Source: an uncultured Taibaiella sp.
Lineage (GTDB): Bacteria > Bacteroidota > Bacteroidia > Chitinophagales > Chitinophagaceae
Direction of reading: 5' to 3'
Assembly (NCBI GenBank): GCA_946886975.1
Contig: CAMPJV010000004.1
Location: 1 to 26,438 of the forward strand
DNA: 26,438 bases
Position 1 is the first letter of the stretch; every line of letters begins with the position of its first letter. The translations under genes and the position numbers were made by a program. Below the pieces are notes generated by a model. That model worked only from the letters and a program-made list of their open reading frames with translations. It ran no database searches and was not told the DNA's origin. Positions 2,137 to 23,117 of this stretch are shown here, one piece after another.

Positions 2137-2691
2137 ATGGCACGTAAGTATTCAAAAGGTTCCTCTGACAAGGTGGAGGAGGTAATGCACGAAATGAAAG
2201 AAGGTAAGCTGAGGAGTGGCTCGGGCAAGAAGGTGACGAGCAGAAAGCAGGCTGTGGCTATCGGCTTGTCGGAAGCGAGGAAGGAAGGTGAGAAAGTGCC
2301 TCGCAAAAAGAGCGGCAGTAAGAAGAGCGCCGGGGGTGCTAAGAAAACGGCGTCGAAGAAAAGCACTGCCACTAAGAAGACCGCAAGTAAGAAGAGTTCC
2401 GGCGGAAGTAAGAAATCTGCTTCGAAAAAGGCCACAGCTTCAAAGAAAACAGCAAGTAAGAAAAGTACGAGCTCGAAGAAGACCGCAAGCAAGAAGACGG
2501 CAACTAAGAAGACGGCAAGCAAAAAGAGTGCAGGCAGCAAGAAGACCGCGACCAGGAAAGCGGCGAGCAAGAAGAGCAGCGGAGCTTCTAAAAGGACTGC
2601 CAGCAAGAAAAGCAGCGGTGGCAGCAAAAAGACAGCAAGCAAGAAGAGCACGTCTCGCAGCAAGAAGAGCGCAGGCAGGAAGAGCTCTTAG
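2137..2691 (+). CDS. DUF6496 protein with histone H1-like Lys/Ala/Ser tail
   Basis: The 184-aa product has two parts. Residues 1 to about 57 (MARKYSKGSSDKVEEVMHEM, later SGKKVTSRKQAVAIGLSEAR) match what I know of the DUF6496 domain. Residues from about 58 to the end are a low-complexity basic tail built from short KKTASKKS / KKSSGGS-like units, as in bacterial histone H1-like and AlgP-type proteins. The tail has almost no acidic residues, so binding to DNA or RNA in the nucleoid is likely, but this is inferred from composition. Codons for Lys and Ala vary along the tail (aag/aaa, gcg/gca/gct), so it is under coding selection and not a pure DNA microsatellite. A strong terminator follows. Confidence 0.85.
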   Translation: MARKYSKGSSDKVEEVMHEMKEGKLRSGSGKKVTSRKQAVAIGLSEARKEGEKVPRKKSGSKKSAGGAKKTASKKSTATKKTASKKSSGGSKKSASKKATASKKTASKKSTSSKKTASKKTATKKTASKKSAGSKKTATRKAASKKSSGASKRTASKKSSGGSKKTASKKSTSRSKKSAGRKSS

Positions 2692-4753: not shown

Positions 4754-4819
4754 ATGTGCGCCTTGCTGCCGGAGACACCCCATCGAGCCGCAAGTGACAA
4801 GGCCGGCTGATAGTGAGGA

Positions 4820-4911
4820 ACTGCATAGCAGAAGGCAGGCAGAGCCATAGCAGAAGCGTACTGACTCCGTACTGACTCCGTATTGACTCCGTATTGACTC
4901 CGTATGAGAGG
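4820..4911 (+). repeat. 11-bp-period intergenic array, locus 1
   Basis: Five CGTA cores occur exactly 11 bases apart (4857, 4868, 4879, 4890, 4901), set in units CTGACTCCGTA or TTGACTCCGTA. To the left are 11-base units ending in GCA with the same spacing: ACTGCATAGCA (4820-4830), GAAGGCAGGCA (4831-4841), GAGCCATAGCA (4842-4852). The array ends CCGTATGAGAGGC. Purine-rich sequence that still shows a loose 11-base rhythm continues to about 4975. The period is not a multiple of three and no gene covers it. It sits between a terminator and mtgA. A second, inverted copy of the same architecture lies at 21822-21994. Confidence 0.85.
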
Positions 4912-4989
4912 CTATCCAGAGCCGGTGGAACGCGTGGAGAGAAGGCGTAGGGGAGAAGGGGAAAGCGCAGGAAGCTTGACTGTAAGTTG

Positions 4990-5016: not shown

Positions 5017-5736
5017 ATGGGTAAGAAAAGATCAGGGTTCCGGCCTGTGAAGTTTATTCTAAAATGGCTGTTGCTTCTGCTGATAGCCTCGATGGTGTAT
5101 GTGGTGATCTGTAAGTGGGTAATGCCACCTATAACCATCACCCAAATATCATCGGTGATGAGCGGACATGGGATGAAGAGAGACTATGTGGAATGGGGGG
5201 AGCTATCTCCCAACCTTAAGCTGGCTGCTATTGCCAGTGAAGATCAGCTATTCCCGGACCATCAGGGGTTTGACTGGAAGGCCATTGAAAAGAGCATGGA
5301 CGACAAGCCTGCAAGAAAGAAGAAGAAAAGAGCCAAGGGAGCGGCAGCAAGCACTATAAGTCAGCAGGTGGCCAAGAACGTCTTCTTATGGCAAGGGAGC
5401 GGATGGGGAAGGTATGTGCGGAAAGCTCCGGAGGCCTTCTATACCGCCATGATTGAACTGGTGTGGGGTAAGCAACGCATACTGGAGGTGTACCTGAACG
5501 TGATAGAAACCGGTCCCGGGATCTTTGGTGCGGAGGCCGCGGCAAGGGCATATTTTAATAAGCCGGCAGCGCAGCTCACCAGGCAGGAGGCTGCGATGAT
5601 CATTGCGTGTCTGCCCAATCCTAAGAAGTTTACTGTAAAGCCCGTTAGCCGGAGAGTGAGCTGGAGAACGCCGGGGATACTGAAGCAGATGCGTTTTATA
5701 GAAGGAGACCCGGAGGTGCGGGTGCTGGTGAAGTAG
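5017..5736 (+). CDS. mtgA: monofunctional peptidoglycan glycosyltransferase MtgA
   Basis: The enzyme polymerises lipid II into glycan strands on the outer face of the inner membrane. The 239-aa length is typical of monofunctional GT51 enzymes. One N-terminal membrane helix (about residues 13-32) anchors it. The GT51 motifs follow in order: EDQLFPDHQGFDW with the catalytic Glu at 75, AASTISQQVAKNVFLW, RKAPEAFYTAMIELVWGKQR, and ILEVYLNVIETGPGIFGAEAAARAYF with the second conserved Glu at 157. No transpeptidase domain follows, which separates it from class A penicillin-binding proteins. The ATG at 5017 gives a short charged start and then the anchor. It lies just downstream of the 11-bp-period array and ahead of two small lipoprotein genes. 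Confidence 0.95.
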   Translation: MGKKRSGFRPVKFILKWLLLLLIASMVYVVICKWVMPPITITQISSVMSGHGMKRDYVEWGELSPNLKLAAIASEDQLFPDHQGFDWKAIEKSMDDKPARKKKKRAKGAAASTISQQVAKNVFLWQGSGWGRYVRKAPEAFYTAMIELVWGKQRILEVYLNVIETGPGIFGAEAAARAYFNKPAAQLTRQEAAMIIACLPNPKKFTVKPVSRRVSWRTPGILKQMRFIEGDPEVRVLVK

Positions 5737-18901: not shown

Positions 18902-21529
18902 TTATACCCTTTCGGTCCTTGTCTTATTAGCCTCATTCCTCATCACCACTACTCCGTCAAACACGTCTATCAGCACTGGTTTTGCCTTGTCTATCTCGCC
19001 TCCTATTATCTTTCGGCTAAGCATATTGATTATATCTTTCTGTATTACTCTCTTTAGCGGACGAGCTCCATATTGCGGATCAAAGCCTTTCTGAGACAGG
19101 TAGTCCAGGGCGTAGTCCGTGAACTGCAGGTCTATTCCTTGTTCCGCCACTTGCTTCTGCAGGTTCTGAAGCTGAATTTTGATAATTCCTTTTATCTCTT
19201 TCCTCATCAGCGGGTGGAACATAATAACGTCGTCCACTCGGTTCAGGAATTCAGGACGCAAGGTCTGTCTCAGCAGGTCCATCACCTGTTCTCTCGTTCC
19301 TTCCACTACAGTGTCTATATCTTTCCCTTCCAGGTCTGCAAAGTTCTCCTGTATTATATGGCTGCCCATATTAGAGGTCATAATTATGATAGTGTTCTTG
19401 AAGTTCACCACCCTGCCCTTGTTGTCGGTAAGTCTTCCATCGTCCAGCACCTGTAGCAAAACGTTGAATGTATCCGGGTGTGCTTTCTCTATCTCGTCCA
19501 GCAGTATCACGGAATAAGGCTTCCGCCTTACGGCCTCGGTCAGCTGGCCGCCTTCTTCATATCCCACATATCCCGGAGGTGCACCCACCAGCCTGCTCAC
19601 GCTATGCTTCTCCTGGTATTCACTCATGTCTATTCGGGTCATCATACTGTCGTCGTCAAACAACACCTCAGCCAGCGCCTTTGCCAGCTCTGTTTTACCC
19701 ACACCTGTCGTACCCAGGAATATGAATGATCCTATGGGCCTTCTCGGGTCTTGCAACCCTGCTCTACCTCTTCTTATCGCGTCAGCTACTGCCTCAATAG
19801 CCTCCGCCTGGCCTACCACTCTCTTATGCAGTTCTTCCTCCAGGTGCAGTAGCTTCTCTCTTTCGCTTTGCAGCATTCTCTGCACAGGTATACCTGTCGC
19901 CTTCGCCACGTTCTCTGCTATATCTTCCGCATCCACTTCTTCTTTCAGTAGACGCTTGCGCTGACTATCCGTCTCATGCAGTTGAGTGGTGTACTCCTTC
20001 ACTTTCGCCTCTTCTTCCTTCACCTTACCATATCGTATCTCTGCCACCTTGCCATAGTCACCTTCACGCTCGGCCTTCTCTGCTTCCTGCTTCAAGTGTT
20101 CTATACTGTTCTTCGCCTGGTTTATCTTGTCCACCAGTTCCTTTTCCTCCAGCCACTTAGCTTTCAGTGTGTCGCGCTCTACGTTCAGTAGCGATATCTC
20201 CTGGCTCAGTTGCTTCAGCTTATCTTCATCATTCTCTCGCTTAATAGCTTCTCTTTCTATCTCCAGTTGCCTTATCCTTCTTTCCAGCTCGTCCAGTTCC
20301 TCGGGCATGGAGTTCAGCTCCAGTTTCAGCTTCGCCGCACTCTCATCTATCAGATCTATCGCCTTATCCGGCAGGAATCTATCAGTTATATACCTATGCG
20401 ATAGTTCCACTGCTGCAATAATAGCCTCGTCCTTTATCCTCACCTGGTGGTGGTTCTCATACCTTTCCTTTAGCCCTCGCAAAATGGATATAGCATCTTC
20501 CGGTGATGGTTCATCCACCAGCACCTTCTGAAATCTTCTCTCCAGCGCCTTGTCCTTTTCAAAGTACTTCTGGTATTCATTCAATGTGGTCGCACCTATG
20601 GCTCTGAGTTCTCCTCTTGCCAATGCGGGCTTCAATATGTTAGCCGCGTCCATTGCTCCTTCCATCGCACCCGCACCTATCAGTGTATGTATCTCGTCTA
20701 TAAAGAGAATGATCTCGCCGTCACTCTCCGCAACTTCCTTTACTACTCCCTTCAGCCTTTCCTCAAAATCACCTCTGTACTTCGCACCCGCCATCAGCGC
20801 ACCCATATCAAGACCGTAGATTATCTTGCTCTTCAAGTTGTCGGGCACGTCACCGTTGATGATCCTGTGCGCCAGTCCCTCTACAATTGCTGTCTTACCT
20901 ACCCCGGGCTCACCTACCAATATCGGGTTGTTCTTCGATCTCCTGGAGAGTATATGCAGCGTCCTTCTTATCTCTTCATCTCTTCCTATCACCGGGTCCA
21001 GCTTTCCATCGCTGGCCATCTCGTTCAGGTTCTTACCATATCGCTGTAGCGCATGGTACTGTTGGTCTGTTGTCTGCGATCCAACGGTACTTCCCTTCCT
21101 TAGTTCCTTTATAGCAGCCACCAATCCCTTCTCCGTCAGCCCTGCATCCTTCAGTATCTTGGCTGCGTCGTCATTTACTTTTAAGATGCCTATCAGCAGA
21201 TGTTCAGGAGTAATAAACTCATCCCCGAATTCCTTCAGTACGGCTCCTGCTCTCAATATCACGTTATTCCCCTCCCTGCTGATATTCTGCGCCGGTTCTC
21301 CTCCTTGCAGTTTTGGAAGGTTGCTTATCAGTTCCTCAAGCTTCTTCTCTACAAAGCCAATGTTTACATTATTCTTCTTCAGCAGGTATTGTATCGGCCC
21401 TTCATTGTCGTTCAGCAATGCCTTCAGCAGGTGAGCCGTTTCAATATTTGGGTTCTCGCTATTAAATGCCAGTTGCTGTGCCTGCTGCAGCAGTTCCTGT
21501 GCTTTTATGGTTAAGTTGTTCAGACTCAT
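18902..21529 (-). CDS. clpB: ATP-dependent disaggregase ClpB
   Basis: ClpB is a hexameric AAA+ chaperone of the cytoplasm that pulls polypeptides out of aggregates together with DnaK. The 875-aa length is standard. The N-terminal Clp repeat domain covers about residues 1-145 (ELLQQAQQLA ... ITPEHLLIGIL). NBD1 has Walker A GEPGVGKT at 206-213 and Walker B IILFIDEIHTLIGAG. The coiled-coil middle domain that separates ClpB from ClpA/C lies at about 400-530. NBD2 has Walker A GTTGVGKT at 606-613, then VILLDEIEKAHPD and GARPLKRVIQKDI near the end. ATG at 21529 gives the expected MSLNNLTIKAQELL start. No CIRCE or similar heat-shock site was recognised upstream, only a T-rich stretch. Confidence 0.97.
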   Translation of the reverse strand: MSLNNLTIKAQELLQQAQQLAFNSENPNIETAHLLKALLNDNEGPIQYLLKKNNVNIGFVEKKLEELISNLPKLQGGEPAQNISREGNNVILRAGAVLKEFGDEFITPEHLLIGILKVNDDAAKILKDAGLTEKGLVAAIKELRKGSTVGSQTTDQQYHALQRYGKNLNEMASDGKLDPVIGRDEEIRRTLHILSRRSKNNPILVGEPGVGKTAIVEGLAHRIINGDVPDNLKSKIIYGLDMGALMAGAKYRGDFEERLKGVVKEVAESDGEIILFIDEIHTLIGAGAMEGAMDAANILKPALARGELRAIGATTLNEYQKYFEKDKALERRFQKVLVDEPSPEDAISILRGLKERYENHHQVRIKDEAIIAAVELSHRYITDRFLPDKAIDLIDESAAKLKLELNSMPEELDELERRIRQLEIEREAIKRENDEDKLKQLSQEISLLNVERDTLKAKWLEEKELVDKINQAKNSIEHLKQEAEKAEREGDYGKVAEIRYGKVKEEEAKVKEYTTQLHETDSQRKRLLKEEVDAEDIAENVAKATGIPVQRMLQSEREKLLHLEEELHKRVVGQAEAIEAVADAIRRGRAGLQDPRRPIGSFIFLGTTGVGKTELAKALAEVLFDDDSMMTRIDMSEYQEKHSVSRLVGAPPGYVGYEEGGQLTEAVRRKPYSVILLDEIEKAHPDTFNVLLQVLDDGRLTDNKGRVVNFKNTIIIMTSNMGSHIIQENFADLEGKDIDTVVEGTREQVMDLLRQTLRPEFLNRVDDVIMFHPLMRKEIKGIIKIQLQNLQKQVAEQGIDLQFTDYALDYLSQKGFDPQYGARPLKRVIQKDIINMLSRKIIGGEIDKAKPVLIDVFDGVVVMRNEANKTRTERV

Positions 21530-21821
21530 CTTTCTTTAGTTTTTTGTTTCGGTTTTTTTCCAGTCCCCTCCCCGGCAGTCATGATCTTCCGGCTTGTTAC
21601 ACTGGTACTTTACCCTTCTCCAACAATTAATCCAACCCGTTCTTTCAGTAATTCTGACACAAGAATCCTTCCGTCAATGTCATTTAGACTCAATCCATTA
21701 CAACTACCTGCATTTATTTCAGGATGAATCAACAATAAATGACGTACTGTCCACCTCCCGCTCTTCTTTGCTTCTGCCCTTCCGGTTCACCTCATCATCC
21801 CGGTCCTTTCAATGGCTCTTG

Positions 21822-21994
21822 AGTGCTTCGTCAGTGCTTTCCATACGGGCCAGATACGGGGTATATACGGGATATATACGGGCTAAATACGGGGTAAATA
21901 CGGAGTAACAAGGGATCTGCTACGCCTTTGCTACCAATCTCCACCGAAGCTGCACCCTCTCTGCTCCCTCTTTGCTCTTCTCCAGCCTTCTCAT
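21822..21994 (-). repeat. 11-bp-period intergenic array, locus 2
   Basis: On the + strand, TACG cores recur exactly every 11 bases at 21844, 21855, 21866, 21877, 21888 and 21899. Two AGTGCTT units (21822, 21833) precede them in the same phase. After an 8-base step, 11-base units beginning with TGC or its variants start at 21918, 21929, 21940, 21951, 21962 and 21973. Read on the - strand this is a block of units ending AGCA/TGCA, then units ending CCGTA (TTTACCCCGTA, TTTAGCCCGTA, TATACCCCGTA), then TATGGAAAGC. That is the same order as locus 1 near 4820. It is not a CRISPR because there are no spacers. Confidence 0.85.
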
Positions 21995-22066
21995 TAAAAT
22001 GCTCCGTCGCAATTGCAAATCCCTCGTTAACAACTTGCAATCCTCCCGTTAACCGGTCCTTTTTTC

Positions 22067-22097
22067 TTGTCCACTCTCAGCCACCGCCGCATCTTTA
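22067..22097 (+). promoter_or_regulatory. candidate promoter of a small RNA
   Basis: TTG at 22067-22069 and CATCTTTA at 22090-22097 are exactly 20 bases apart, the same spacing as in the promoter at 3734-3765. Transcription would start near 22104. No open frame follows before the terminator at 22161. Confidence 0.35.
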
Positions 22098-22103
22098 CAT
22101 CAT

Positions 22104-22188
22104 CAGGCACGCAAATAGCAAAGCCGTCAATACAGTCTCCATTCTCTCCTTATATAATGTAGAGCCCTTTCTAGGGCTCTTTTCTTTT
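22104..22188 (+). ncRNA. candidate small RNA (about 85 nt)
   Basis: A promoter-like pair upstream and a strong terminator at 22161-22188 frame about 85 bases with no coding frame. The terminator has no other + strand gene to serve, since the gene to its left (clpB) is on the other strand. No known RNA family was recognised. Confidence 0.3.
22161..22188 (+). terminator. rho-independent terminator without an obvious gene
   Basis: AGAGCCCT (22161-22168) and AGGGCTCT (22173-22180) form a perfect 8-bp stem with a 4-base loop, followed by TTTCTTTT. It lies 45 bases before the yihY-like gene. Confidence 0.8.
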
Positions 22189-22232
22189 ATATCACCCAAT
22201 TAGATAATACCGCTATATTTATTGAGAGATAA

Positions 22233-23117
22233 ATGATCACACGGTTCTTCCATACCAGCTGGATTCTGCTAAAAGCCTCCTTCCGCGAGTTAGCGGCCAA
22301 TGATCCCTTGCGCATGGCCGGGGCCACTGCCTTCTTCAGCACCTTCGCCCTGCCTCCTATCCTCATTATCATTGTCCGCACCCTCGGCCTCATTTCAGAT
22401 CCGCGCACCATCGGCCGTGGACTTATGGCCAAACTTGGAGACACCGTCGGACCGGAAGGCTCGGGACAGGTATTGGCCACTGTTCGGGGCTTCCGCAACA
22501 TCCAGAGCGATGGAATGCTTAGTCTCCTCATTTTCGTCTTCCTCCTCTTTGTGGCCACCACCTTGTTCATCGTCATCCAGGGTTCTTTTCACCAGATTTG
22601 GAACATCCGCCCGATTCCCAAAAAGAACCTTCGTGCGATGATGCGCTCACGGGTTCACTCCCTCGCCGTCATTCTGCTCATTGGTGTCCTCTTCCTCGCA
22701 GTCCTTATCCTCGATGGCGCGCAGGCTGTCCTGGGCAACTACATCTCTTATATCACACCGGCATTTGCCGCTTACGTCAATAGTGCCTTCAACCATATTA
22801 TATCCATTGCCATTGTTACCATCTGGTTCTTCGTCCTGTTCATCTACCTCCCCGAGGGCCGTCCGCCATGGAGAGATGCGCTTGCAGGCGCCCTTATCAC
22901 GAGCATTTTGTTCACCGTAGGTAAACTGGTCCTGCGCCTCCTCCTGGTCGAAAGCAACATTGGCGAGCTATACGGCACCGCCGGGGCCTTGGTCCTGCTC
23001 CTGCTCTTCGTCTTCTATTCTTCACTCATTCTCTATTTCGGCGCTGCCTTCACCAAGGTTTGGTGCCGCCACCACGGCCGCTCCATTCGCCCTTTGTACA
23101 ATGCCGAGATAGGTTAA
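22233..23117 (+). CDS. YihY/BrkB family membrane protein
   Basis: The 294-aa protein has about six membrane helices and the YihY/BrkB pattern: an N-terminal cytoplasmic part (ILLKASFRELAANDPLRMAG), the first helix with TAFFSTFALPPILIII, the centre SFHQIWNIRPIPKKNLRAMM with its basic loop, then YLPEGRPPWRDALAGALITS and the end TAGALVLLLLFVFYSSLILY. Members are inner-membrane proteins of unclear role, once misnamed ribonuclease BN; some are linked to serum resistance or envelope integrity. A terminator lies just upstream, so the gene has its own start of transcription. The codons are C-rich, like the other genes in the right part of the window. Confidence 0.92.
   Translation: MITRFFHTSWILLKASFRELAANDPLRMAGATAFFSTFALPPILIIIVRTLGLISDPRTIGRGLMAKLGDTVGPEGSGQVLATVRGFRNIQSDGMLSLLIFVFLLFVATTLFIVIQGSFHQIWNIRPIPKKNLRAMMRSRVHSLAVILLIGVLFLAVLILDGAQAVLGNYISYITPAFAAYVNSAFNHIISIAIVTIWFFVLFIYLPEGRPPWRDALAGALITSILFTVGKLVLRLLLVESNIGELYGTAGALVLLLLFVFYSSLILYFGAAFTKVWCRHHGRSIRPLYNAEIG

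Follow-up and report, generated by a model that had tools for sequence, protein, structure and literature searches.

Phased 11-bp repeat arrays in an uncultured Taibaiella sp. and a dispersed family of two-armed elements in related genomes

Two copies of an array built from 11-bp units were found in the 26 kb window (the whole stretch of 26,438 nucleotides analysed here), and are referred to below as locus 1 and locus 2. The units keep a strict register, the two loci are akin to each other, and related genomes harbour a dispersed family of two-armed elements, with sites common to two genomes, 11-bp units that are gained and lost as wholes, a constrained core (TA..CCG) and a freer 3-bp spacer. 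We tentatively favour a reading of the arrays as phased cis-acting binding sites for a putative sequence-specific protein. With sites exactly one helical turn (11 bp) apart, the step would matter through helical phasing: copies of the protein would all sit on the same face of the DNA and could so assemble into a multimer. The arrays of the window would then be one-armed, diverged versions of the two-armed site of the relatives, and the resulting complex could serve nucleoid organisation, a boundary, partition or regulation.

Layout and periodicity of the two arrays

Locus 2 sits in a divergent gap between a ClpB-like gene (18902..21529, - strand) and a PF03631 (BrkB/YihY-like) gene (22233..23117, + strand), both directed away from it. 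Read on the - strand from 21991 to 21761, it is laid out as 21 rows of 11 bases in one register (231 bp). Six rows start with CCGTAT and form a core block (21838..21903, - strand; direct reading, and period 11 in Tandem Repeats Finder), in which the hexamer is followed by TTACC, TTAGC, ATATC, ATACC, CTGGC and GGAAA. Eight in-register rows with a consensus near GCGTAGCAGAG precede the core (21904..21991, - strand; from shuffles and the row layout), and seven more diverged in-register rows come after it (21761..21837, - strand). Of the 15 rows that flank the core, 14 have G in column 6.

Several of these features had been noticed in a sequence-only reading of the same DNA. The six TACG cores that it placed 11 bases apart start at 21844, 21855, 21866, 21877, 21888 and 21899, and its two AGTGCTT units, most of which fall within the diverged rows, start at 21822 and 21833. 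Of the six TGC-type units that it assigned to what we describe as the eight preceding rows, five contain TGC (21918, 21929, 21951, 21962 and 21973) and the one at 21940 does not. The 8-base step that it saw between these units and the TACG cores is not a break in phase: a seventh TACG at 21921, 22 bases (exactly two units) past the sixth, stays in register, and the step appeared because two different columns of one unit had been compared. The purine-rich rhythm does continue, to about 21761 rather than to about 21742, and the proposed two-block design survives as an order common to both loci, the blocks being one drifting 11-bp unit and not separate modules.

Tandem Repeats Finder reported both arrays with period 11. 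In the intergenic region of locus 2 the best 66-base stretch has a lag-11 identity of 0.773, against a shuffle maximum of 0.576 (the best value at any lag from 5 to 30 over 1000 dinucleotide shuffles); the corresponding values for locus 1 are 0.742 and 0.530, and at neither locus did any of the 1000 shuffles reach the observed periodicity. The outer parts of locus 2 are periodic by themselves (21915-21991, 0 of 2000 shuffles reaching the observed value; 21761-21838, p = 0.001), and the flanks of locus 1 alone show no significant periodicity (p = 0.17 and 0.24). Open frames of 104 and 91 aa (+ strand) overlap locus 2 and one of 129 aa (- strand) overlaps locus 1. Rfam gave no match at gathering score in the whole window, and no DNA similar to 21530-22232 was found among plasmid sequences.

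Locus 1 contains CCGTAY units at 4867, 4878, 4889 and 4900, preceded by GCGTACTGACT at 4856, and lies upstream of a PF00912 transglycosylase (MtgA-like) gene (5017..5736, + strand). The claim that the two loci have their block order in common was upheld by the very alignment that had been named as able to overturn it: aligning locus 1 (4800-4980) with the reverse complement of 21740-22000 gave 100 columns free of gaps, with 65% identity and a score of 60, in which 4806..4905 (+ strand) is paired with 21964-21865 of the other strand. The score was at most 32 in 300 dinucleotide shuffles, and at most 58 in 500 trials in which the order of the 11-bp units was permuted in both arrays. Since permuted orders score below the real one, it is the order of the variants that is common to both loci, and not the period alone; the same block order at locus 1 and locus 2 is thus supported.

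These results make it hardly credible that the arrays reflect chance low complexity or a helical periodicity general to purine-rich intergenic DNA. Bacterial DNA is known to carry a general signal with a period near 11 bp (PMC516772 and PMC4132750), but this explanation is refuted by the failure of every one of the 1000 shuffles to reach the observed scores; furthermore, bulk noncoding DNA has no marked lag-11 excess in any group measured, and the two loci lose their alignment once the order of the units is permuted.

The neighbours of the two arrays are a 265-aa protein without a Pfam match, the transglycosylase, ClpB and the BrkB/YihY-like protein. The last of these is 59%, 58% and 55% identical to the proteins of the best genomes and 50% identical to that of the MAG Bacteroidetes bacterium isolate SZAS-26; the yihY locus of the three nearest relatives had no array at the cut-off used. 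Between locus 2 and the gene for the BrkB/YihY-like protein lies a terminator-like hairpin (22161..22180, + strand; one found, 0.6 expected in shuffles), given here as context only. Elsewhere in the window, positions 2137-2691 (+ strand) encode a Lys/Ala-rich, repeat-built protein with an N-terminal DUF6496 and a sub-threshold match to the histone H1-like HC2 (35.3 against a 40-bit cut-off), possibly a nucleoid protein.

Two-armed elements in related genomes

A period scan that used no motif detected noncoding period-11 arrays in further genomes, several of which consist of WTAASCCG plus three variable bases in two arms around an AT-rich centre. More generally, the element of the relatives is built from 11-bp units of WTAWSCCG plus 3 variable bases, mostly in two arms that face an AT-rich centre. 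Two in-phase units were found in 16 of 60 genomes of one genus, with up to 48 matches each, and the reversed control was positive in none of the 60. The count from a looser pattern of three in-phase TATAWS units (20 of 60 genomes) is much softer, as its reversed control was non-zero in 16 of 60 and exceeded the pattern itself in some genomes (G786, G789 and G794). The union of the two patterns gives 24 positive genomes of 60, some of them with a single match or below the reversed control. Among the TATAWS matches listed, the remainders of the units are species-specific.

A profile (R1) was built from 20 of 39 distinct arms, with no sequence from the window included. Searched against the window at E up to 10, it gave a single match, 21868-21903 on the - strand within the core of locus 2 (23.2 bits, E 1.3e-6, E-values of this search being rough). 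The sequence-only reading had argued from the two loci for a real element family, and this match, together with the dispersed 11-bp-unit elements of related genomes, supports that argument. Four other period-11 arrays of CCGTAY units (L241, L248, L251 and L253) in the sequence searched went unreported by R1 at E up to 1, so the match at locus 2 reflects the motif as well as the period. Locus 2 therefore has what defines the element in the relatives, R1-matching units at an exact 11-bp step; within its core, ATATCCCG fits WTAWSCCG exactly and is a variant known from the family, three units differ at position 4 and two are more diverged. Locus 1 lacks R1-matching units, with no match at E up to 10, and its tie to the elements of the relatives runs solely through its alignment to locus 2. 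No second inverted arm (ATACGG-type units) was seen by eye beside either locus.

At E up to 1e-4, R1 matched 17 of 294 genomes of the family and 2 of 296 genomes of the phylum sample, one of the two being G164 of the same family; these genome-wide counts were obtained with stricter filters and 22 candidates scored per genome, and may be low. Of 20 R1 loci viewed by eye, about 16 have arms facing a centre, three (L415, L417 and L423) look one-armed, and one (L426) has no array at that place. Within the family sample, R1 was run on 74 of the 78 stretches L220-L297 (1,459,167 bases; L223, L224, L278 and L279 excluded) and matched 7 places, all in period-11 arrays already seen, one of which (L252) had contributed to the profile. 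No match was obtained in 775,311 bases of the phylum sample and closest relatives.

Distribution of period-11 and CCGTAY arrays

Period 11 does not stand alone among the noncoding arrays of the family. A survey of 1,145,152 bases gave six arrays of period 11, six of period 7 and five of period 14, the six of period 11 including L223 and L224, which were chosen for arrays already seen there, and L281, which comes from the same genome as L224. In 375,311 bases of the phylum sample, one array of period 11 and two of period 7 were found. The period-7 arrays of L267, L268 and L269 are noncoding, and such arrays are about as frequent as those of period 11 in the family sample.

Four CCGTAY units at step 11 occurred in 3 of 195 genomes of the family (16 matches, some overlapping; reversed control 0), and three such units in 1 of 7 genomes in the genus of G164. 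In the phylum sample, 2 of 395 genomes had four units, and the reversed pattern also gave one place (G570), so that G151 and G480, which have a single CCGTAY match each in the family and phylum searches, may be background. A viral origin was rejected: four CCGTAY units at step 11 were found in 15 viral stretches, and the controls gave 13 (reversed), 11 (step 10) and at least 120 (step 12), so the viral matches represent background.

Evolution of the elements between genomes

Comparison of two genomes, G757 and G686, indicated that the elements are held at common sites. The flanks of 15 of the 16 elements in G757 match an element locus in G686, each a different one. Among these 15 aligned pairs, the gaps that fall within recognisable units measure 22, 22, 11 and 11 bp, one each in four pairs; the remaining gaps (6 bases in L351/L367, 19 in L348/L364, 44 in L358/L363, and single bases in L353/L365 and L354/L373) are all located where the units end on the outer side, or farther out. 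Substitution between the two genomes amounted to 0.195 in the flanks and 0.095 in the spacers, and to 1 in 440 at the five core bases TA and CCG, the core being counted where G757 matches the motif, a choice of positions that lowers the count. The best paralog was closer than the ortholog in 10 of the 15 pairs and no closer in the other 5, which points to homogenisation between copies; such homogenisation may explain part of the core conservation. One convergent site carries an element in both G757 and G686. The next relatives, G808 and G799, are missing about 255-290 bp there, the element included; in G778, which is more distant, an 11-bp array of another unit occupies the same site.

These observations have to be weighed against a minisatellite or MITE-like element without host function, which would spread or be inherited, be homogenised between copies, and grow or shrink in multiples of the 11-bp unit as a result of slippage or unequal exchange. 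We consider this a serious possibility, short of probable, and a neutral element of this kind is nearly as good an account of the steps of entire units and of the patchy distribution as a binding array is. It would be consistent with the unit gaps of exactly 11 or 22 bp, the closer paralogs in 10 of 15 pairs, the sporadic distribution (16 of 60 and 17 of 294 genomes), the two close relatives without the element-bearing stretch at one site, and an intergenic placement much like that of BrickBuilt, which is reported as always intergenic in the relevant passages of PMC4596501. It is less easily reconciled with a core that is nearly unchanged while the flanks differ by 19.5%, with diverged rows of locus 2 that hold register without indels over 231 bp, with orthologous flanks for 15 of 16 elements, and with the absence of the Y1 transposase from 7 of 7 carriers; moreover, neither terminal inverted repeats nor target duplications were demonstrated, and the one site aligned defined no clean junction.

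In favour of phased binding sites are the period of 11, held over the whole of locus 2 although its units differ in sequence, the R1 match confined to locus 2 within the window, the whole-unit gaps in four ortholog pairs and the rarity of substitutions in the core. Several observations count against them: tandem duplication of whole units alone would also give strict 11-bp steps, the best paralog is often closer than the ortholog, the innermost units agree across the dyad (see below), and only one of the six core units of locus 2 fits WTAWSCCG exactly. The distribution among close relatives is also unfavourable, as no three-unit CCGTAY array was found in 5 genomes in the genus of G630, the closest genome found, and 480,870 bases from five close genomes held a single noncoding period-11 array above the cut-off of 0.56.

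In the cases examined, the elements sit between long open frames, and short frames overlap a few. Their contexts in G757 are 8 tandem, 5 convergent and 3 divergent gaps, against 18, 7 and 12 in the background, which includes the element loci themselves. The occurrence of elements in convergent, divergent and tandem gaps makes a chromosome-level role seem likelier than control of single promoters, and a terminator-only or promoter-only role was rejected on account of these mixed contexts. On the 6.28 Mb contig C1 of G757, none of the 16 listed elements lies between about 0.17 and 2.25 Mb.

Opposed arms and folding

The opposed arms of the relatives raise the alternative that the element acts as RNA or as a DNA cruciform, in which the two arms would pair into one long hairpin and thereby terminate, stabilise or process transcripts, a role that has been proposed for REP sequences. 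A-form RNA has 11 bp per turn, so the period would suit this reading likewise. The arms do face each other around a centre, and 22 of 44 centres of 14 bp contain a fully self-complementary octamer (CTATATAG in 18, CTTTAAAG in 2, TTATATAA in 1 and CTTATAAG in 1). When units mirrored across the dyad were compared, their choice of G or C agreed in 46 of 54 cases for the innermost unit, a level reached in none of 2000 permutations (16 of 24, p = 0.12, when G757 and G686 were left out).

Despite these features, we regard an RNA or cruciform role as improbable. Agreement across the dyad falls to 6 of 33 for unit 2 and 4 of 16 for unit 3 (4 of 5 for unit 4), the spacers outside the innermost one are seldom complementary, and complementarity within elements is at the level of shuffled arms (495 of 1000 permutations), so that the pairing and covarying arms expected of a REP-like RNA hairpin were not found. 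Neither array of the window has an inverted arm, and their folding does not surpass that of shuffled sequence (z = +1.05, -0.37, +1.70 and -0.77), and the mixed gap contexts in G757 also argue against a role in transcripts. The disagreement of units 2 and 3 and the lack of folding suggest DNA sites with inward polarity, perhaps with a small central dyad, rather than a long stem; a short central hairpin in the elements of the relatives is possible. The disagreeing mirrored units and the rarely complementary outer spacers are, in turn, what phased binding sites on DNA would show.

Comparison with known repeat systems

Among the titles and opening lines of abstracts listed for open-licence literature, none describes these elements, whether as repeats of this Bacteroidota group or by their 11-bp unit, a result that does not establish their absence from print; Chitinophaga does not occur in the main text of RepRanger (PMC12306157) or of a MITE review (PMC10969869). 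Three known systems, BrickBuilt, REP/RAYT and the TAACTGA heptamers, match parts of the picture in the passages available, and differ in unit, tags or mobility genes. BrickBuilt is a minisatellite-MITE of Porphyromonas gingivalis with 19 copies in one strain and, like the present elements, belongs to the Bacteroidota, has short tandem units and is intergenic. However, its unit is 23 bp long, it has a leader and a tail with IS-like terminal inverted repeats, and the available passages mention neither a register of 11 bp nor arms of units that oppose each other (PMC4596501).

REP/BIME sequences, mobilised by RAYT transposases, are similarly dispersed and partly palindromic, but are described in the excerpted text as palindromes of 20-40 bp with GTAG or CGTC tags and not as phased tandem units (PMC3733652). 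The Y1 (TnpA-REP) transposase, PF01797, was found in 1 of 12 genomes overall, a non-carrier, and in none of the 7 element carriers tested, and a REP/RAYT system was rejected on this ground. The TAACTGA heptamers of Beggiatoaceae, Cyanobacteria and five Bacteroidetes likewise form sporadic intergenic arrays of direct repeats; by contrast, the sections consulted give them a 7-bp unit of identical sequence in distant lineages, mostly pointing at the start codon in the main genome described (PMC4679880).

A precedent among bound repeats is provided by the parC centromeres bound by ParR, whose direct repeats are 11 bp long in R1, where ParR requires at least two of them (PMC9426499, in part). The ParR-B of a Clostridium perfringens plasmid needs an 8-bp motif and a 3-bp spacer, the spacing being essential, an arrangement that resembles WTAWSCCG plus 3 variable bases; in the same passages, however, parC is a plasmid site, usually upstream of parM, whereas the present elements are dispersed in genomes (PMC9426499).

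Possible docking arrays across the lineage

A broader form of the binding-site reading can be proposed, although we think it rather unlikely: the arrays might be docking sites on the chromosome throughout the lineage, with each species replacing its unit sequence in a concerted manner but retaining the 11-bp step and, at one site or more, the genomic position. Unit spellings are species-specific in the relatives (ATAASCCGCCC, ATAASCCGTAK, ATAASCCATAT, ATATCTATCCT, ATATCCTACCT and others). If true, bacteria would have in these arrays an equivalent of satellite DNA that evolves together with the protein binding it, and the window arrays would be a diverged one-armed branch. Short intergenic repeats are common, but a family with a constant helical step and letters that vary by species would allow a rapidly evolving DNA-binding system to be approached from sequence alone across a large group of Bacteroidota. 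The proposal is open to direct test, since the arrays have known positions, are of small size and reach high numbers in some genomes.

Other 11-bp arrays in relatives

Three further kinds of 11-bp array were observed in the relatives. In G163 (L005, L007, L009, L013, L018 and L019), a dispersed fixed sequence with its own flanks contains four CCGTAY units at step 11 followed by AAATAGCACAACTTT, with a TGTCATGACATAACCTGACA-like motif upstream of the latter; these copies may be unrelated to the window arrays. At 9550-9900 of L281, in G757, a very regular array of 11-bp GCGCGATTACA-type units is followed by a second phased block of AAGGCAGTGTA type, a build that sets it apart from the palindromic elements in G757. 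Finally, G164 carries three colinear arrays of about 20 units each with similar flanks (L006, L024 and L029), in which CCGTATGG-type units are followed by AGGTATGGCAG-type units, a two-block order opposite to that of the window.
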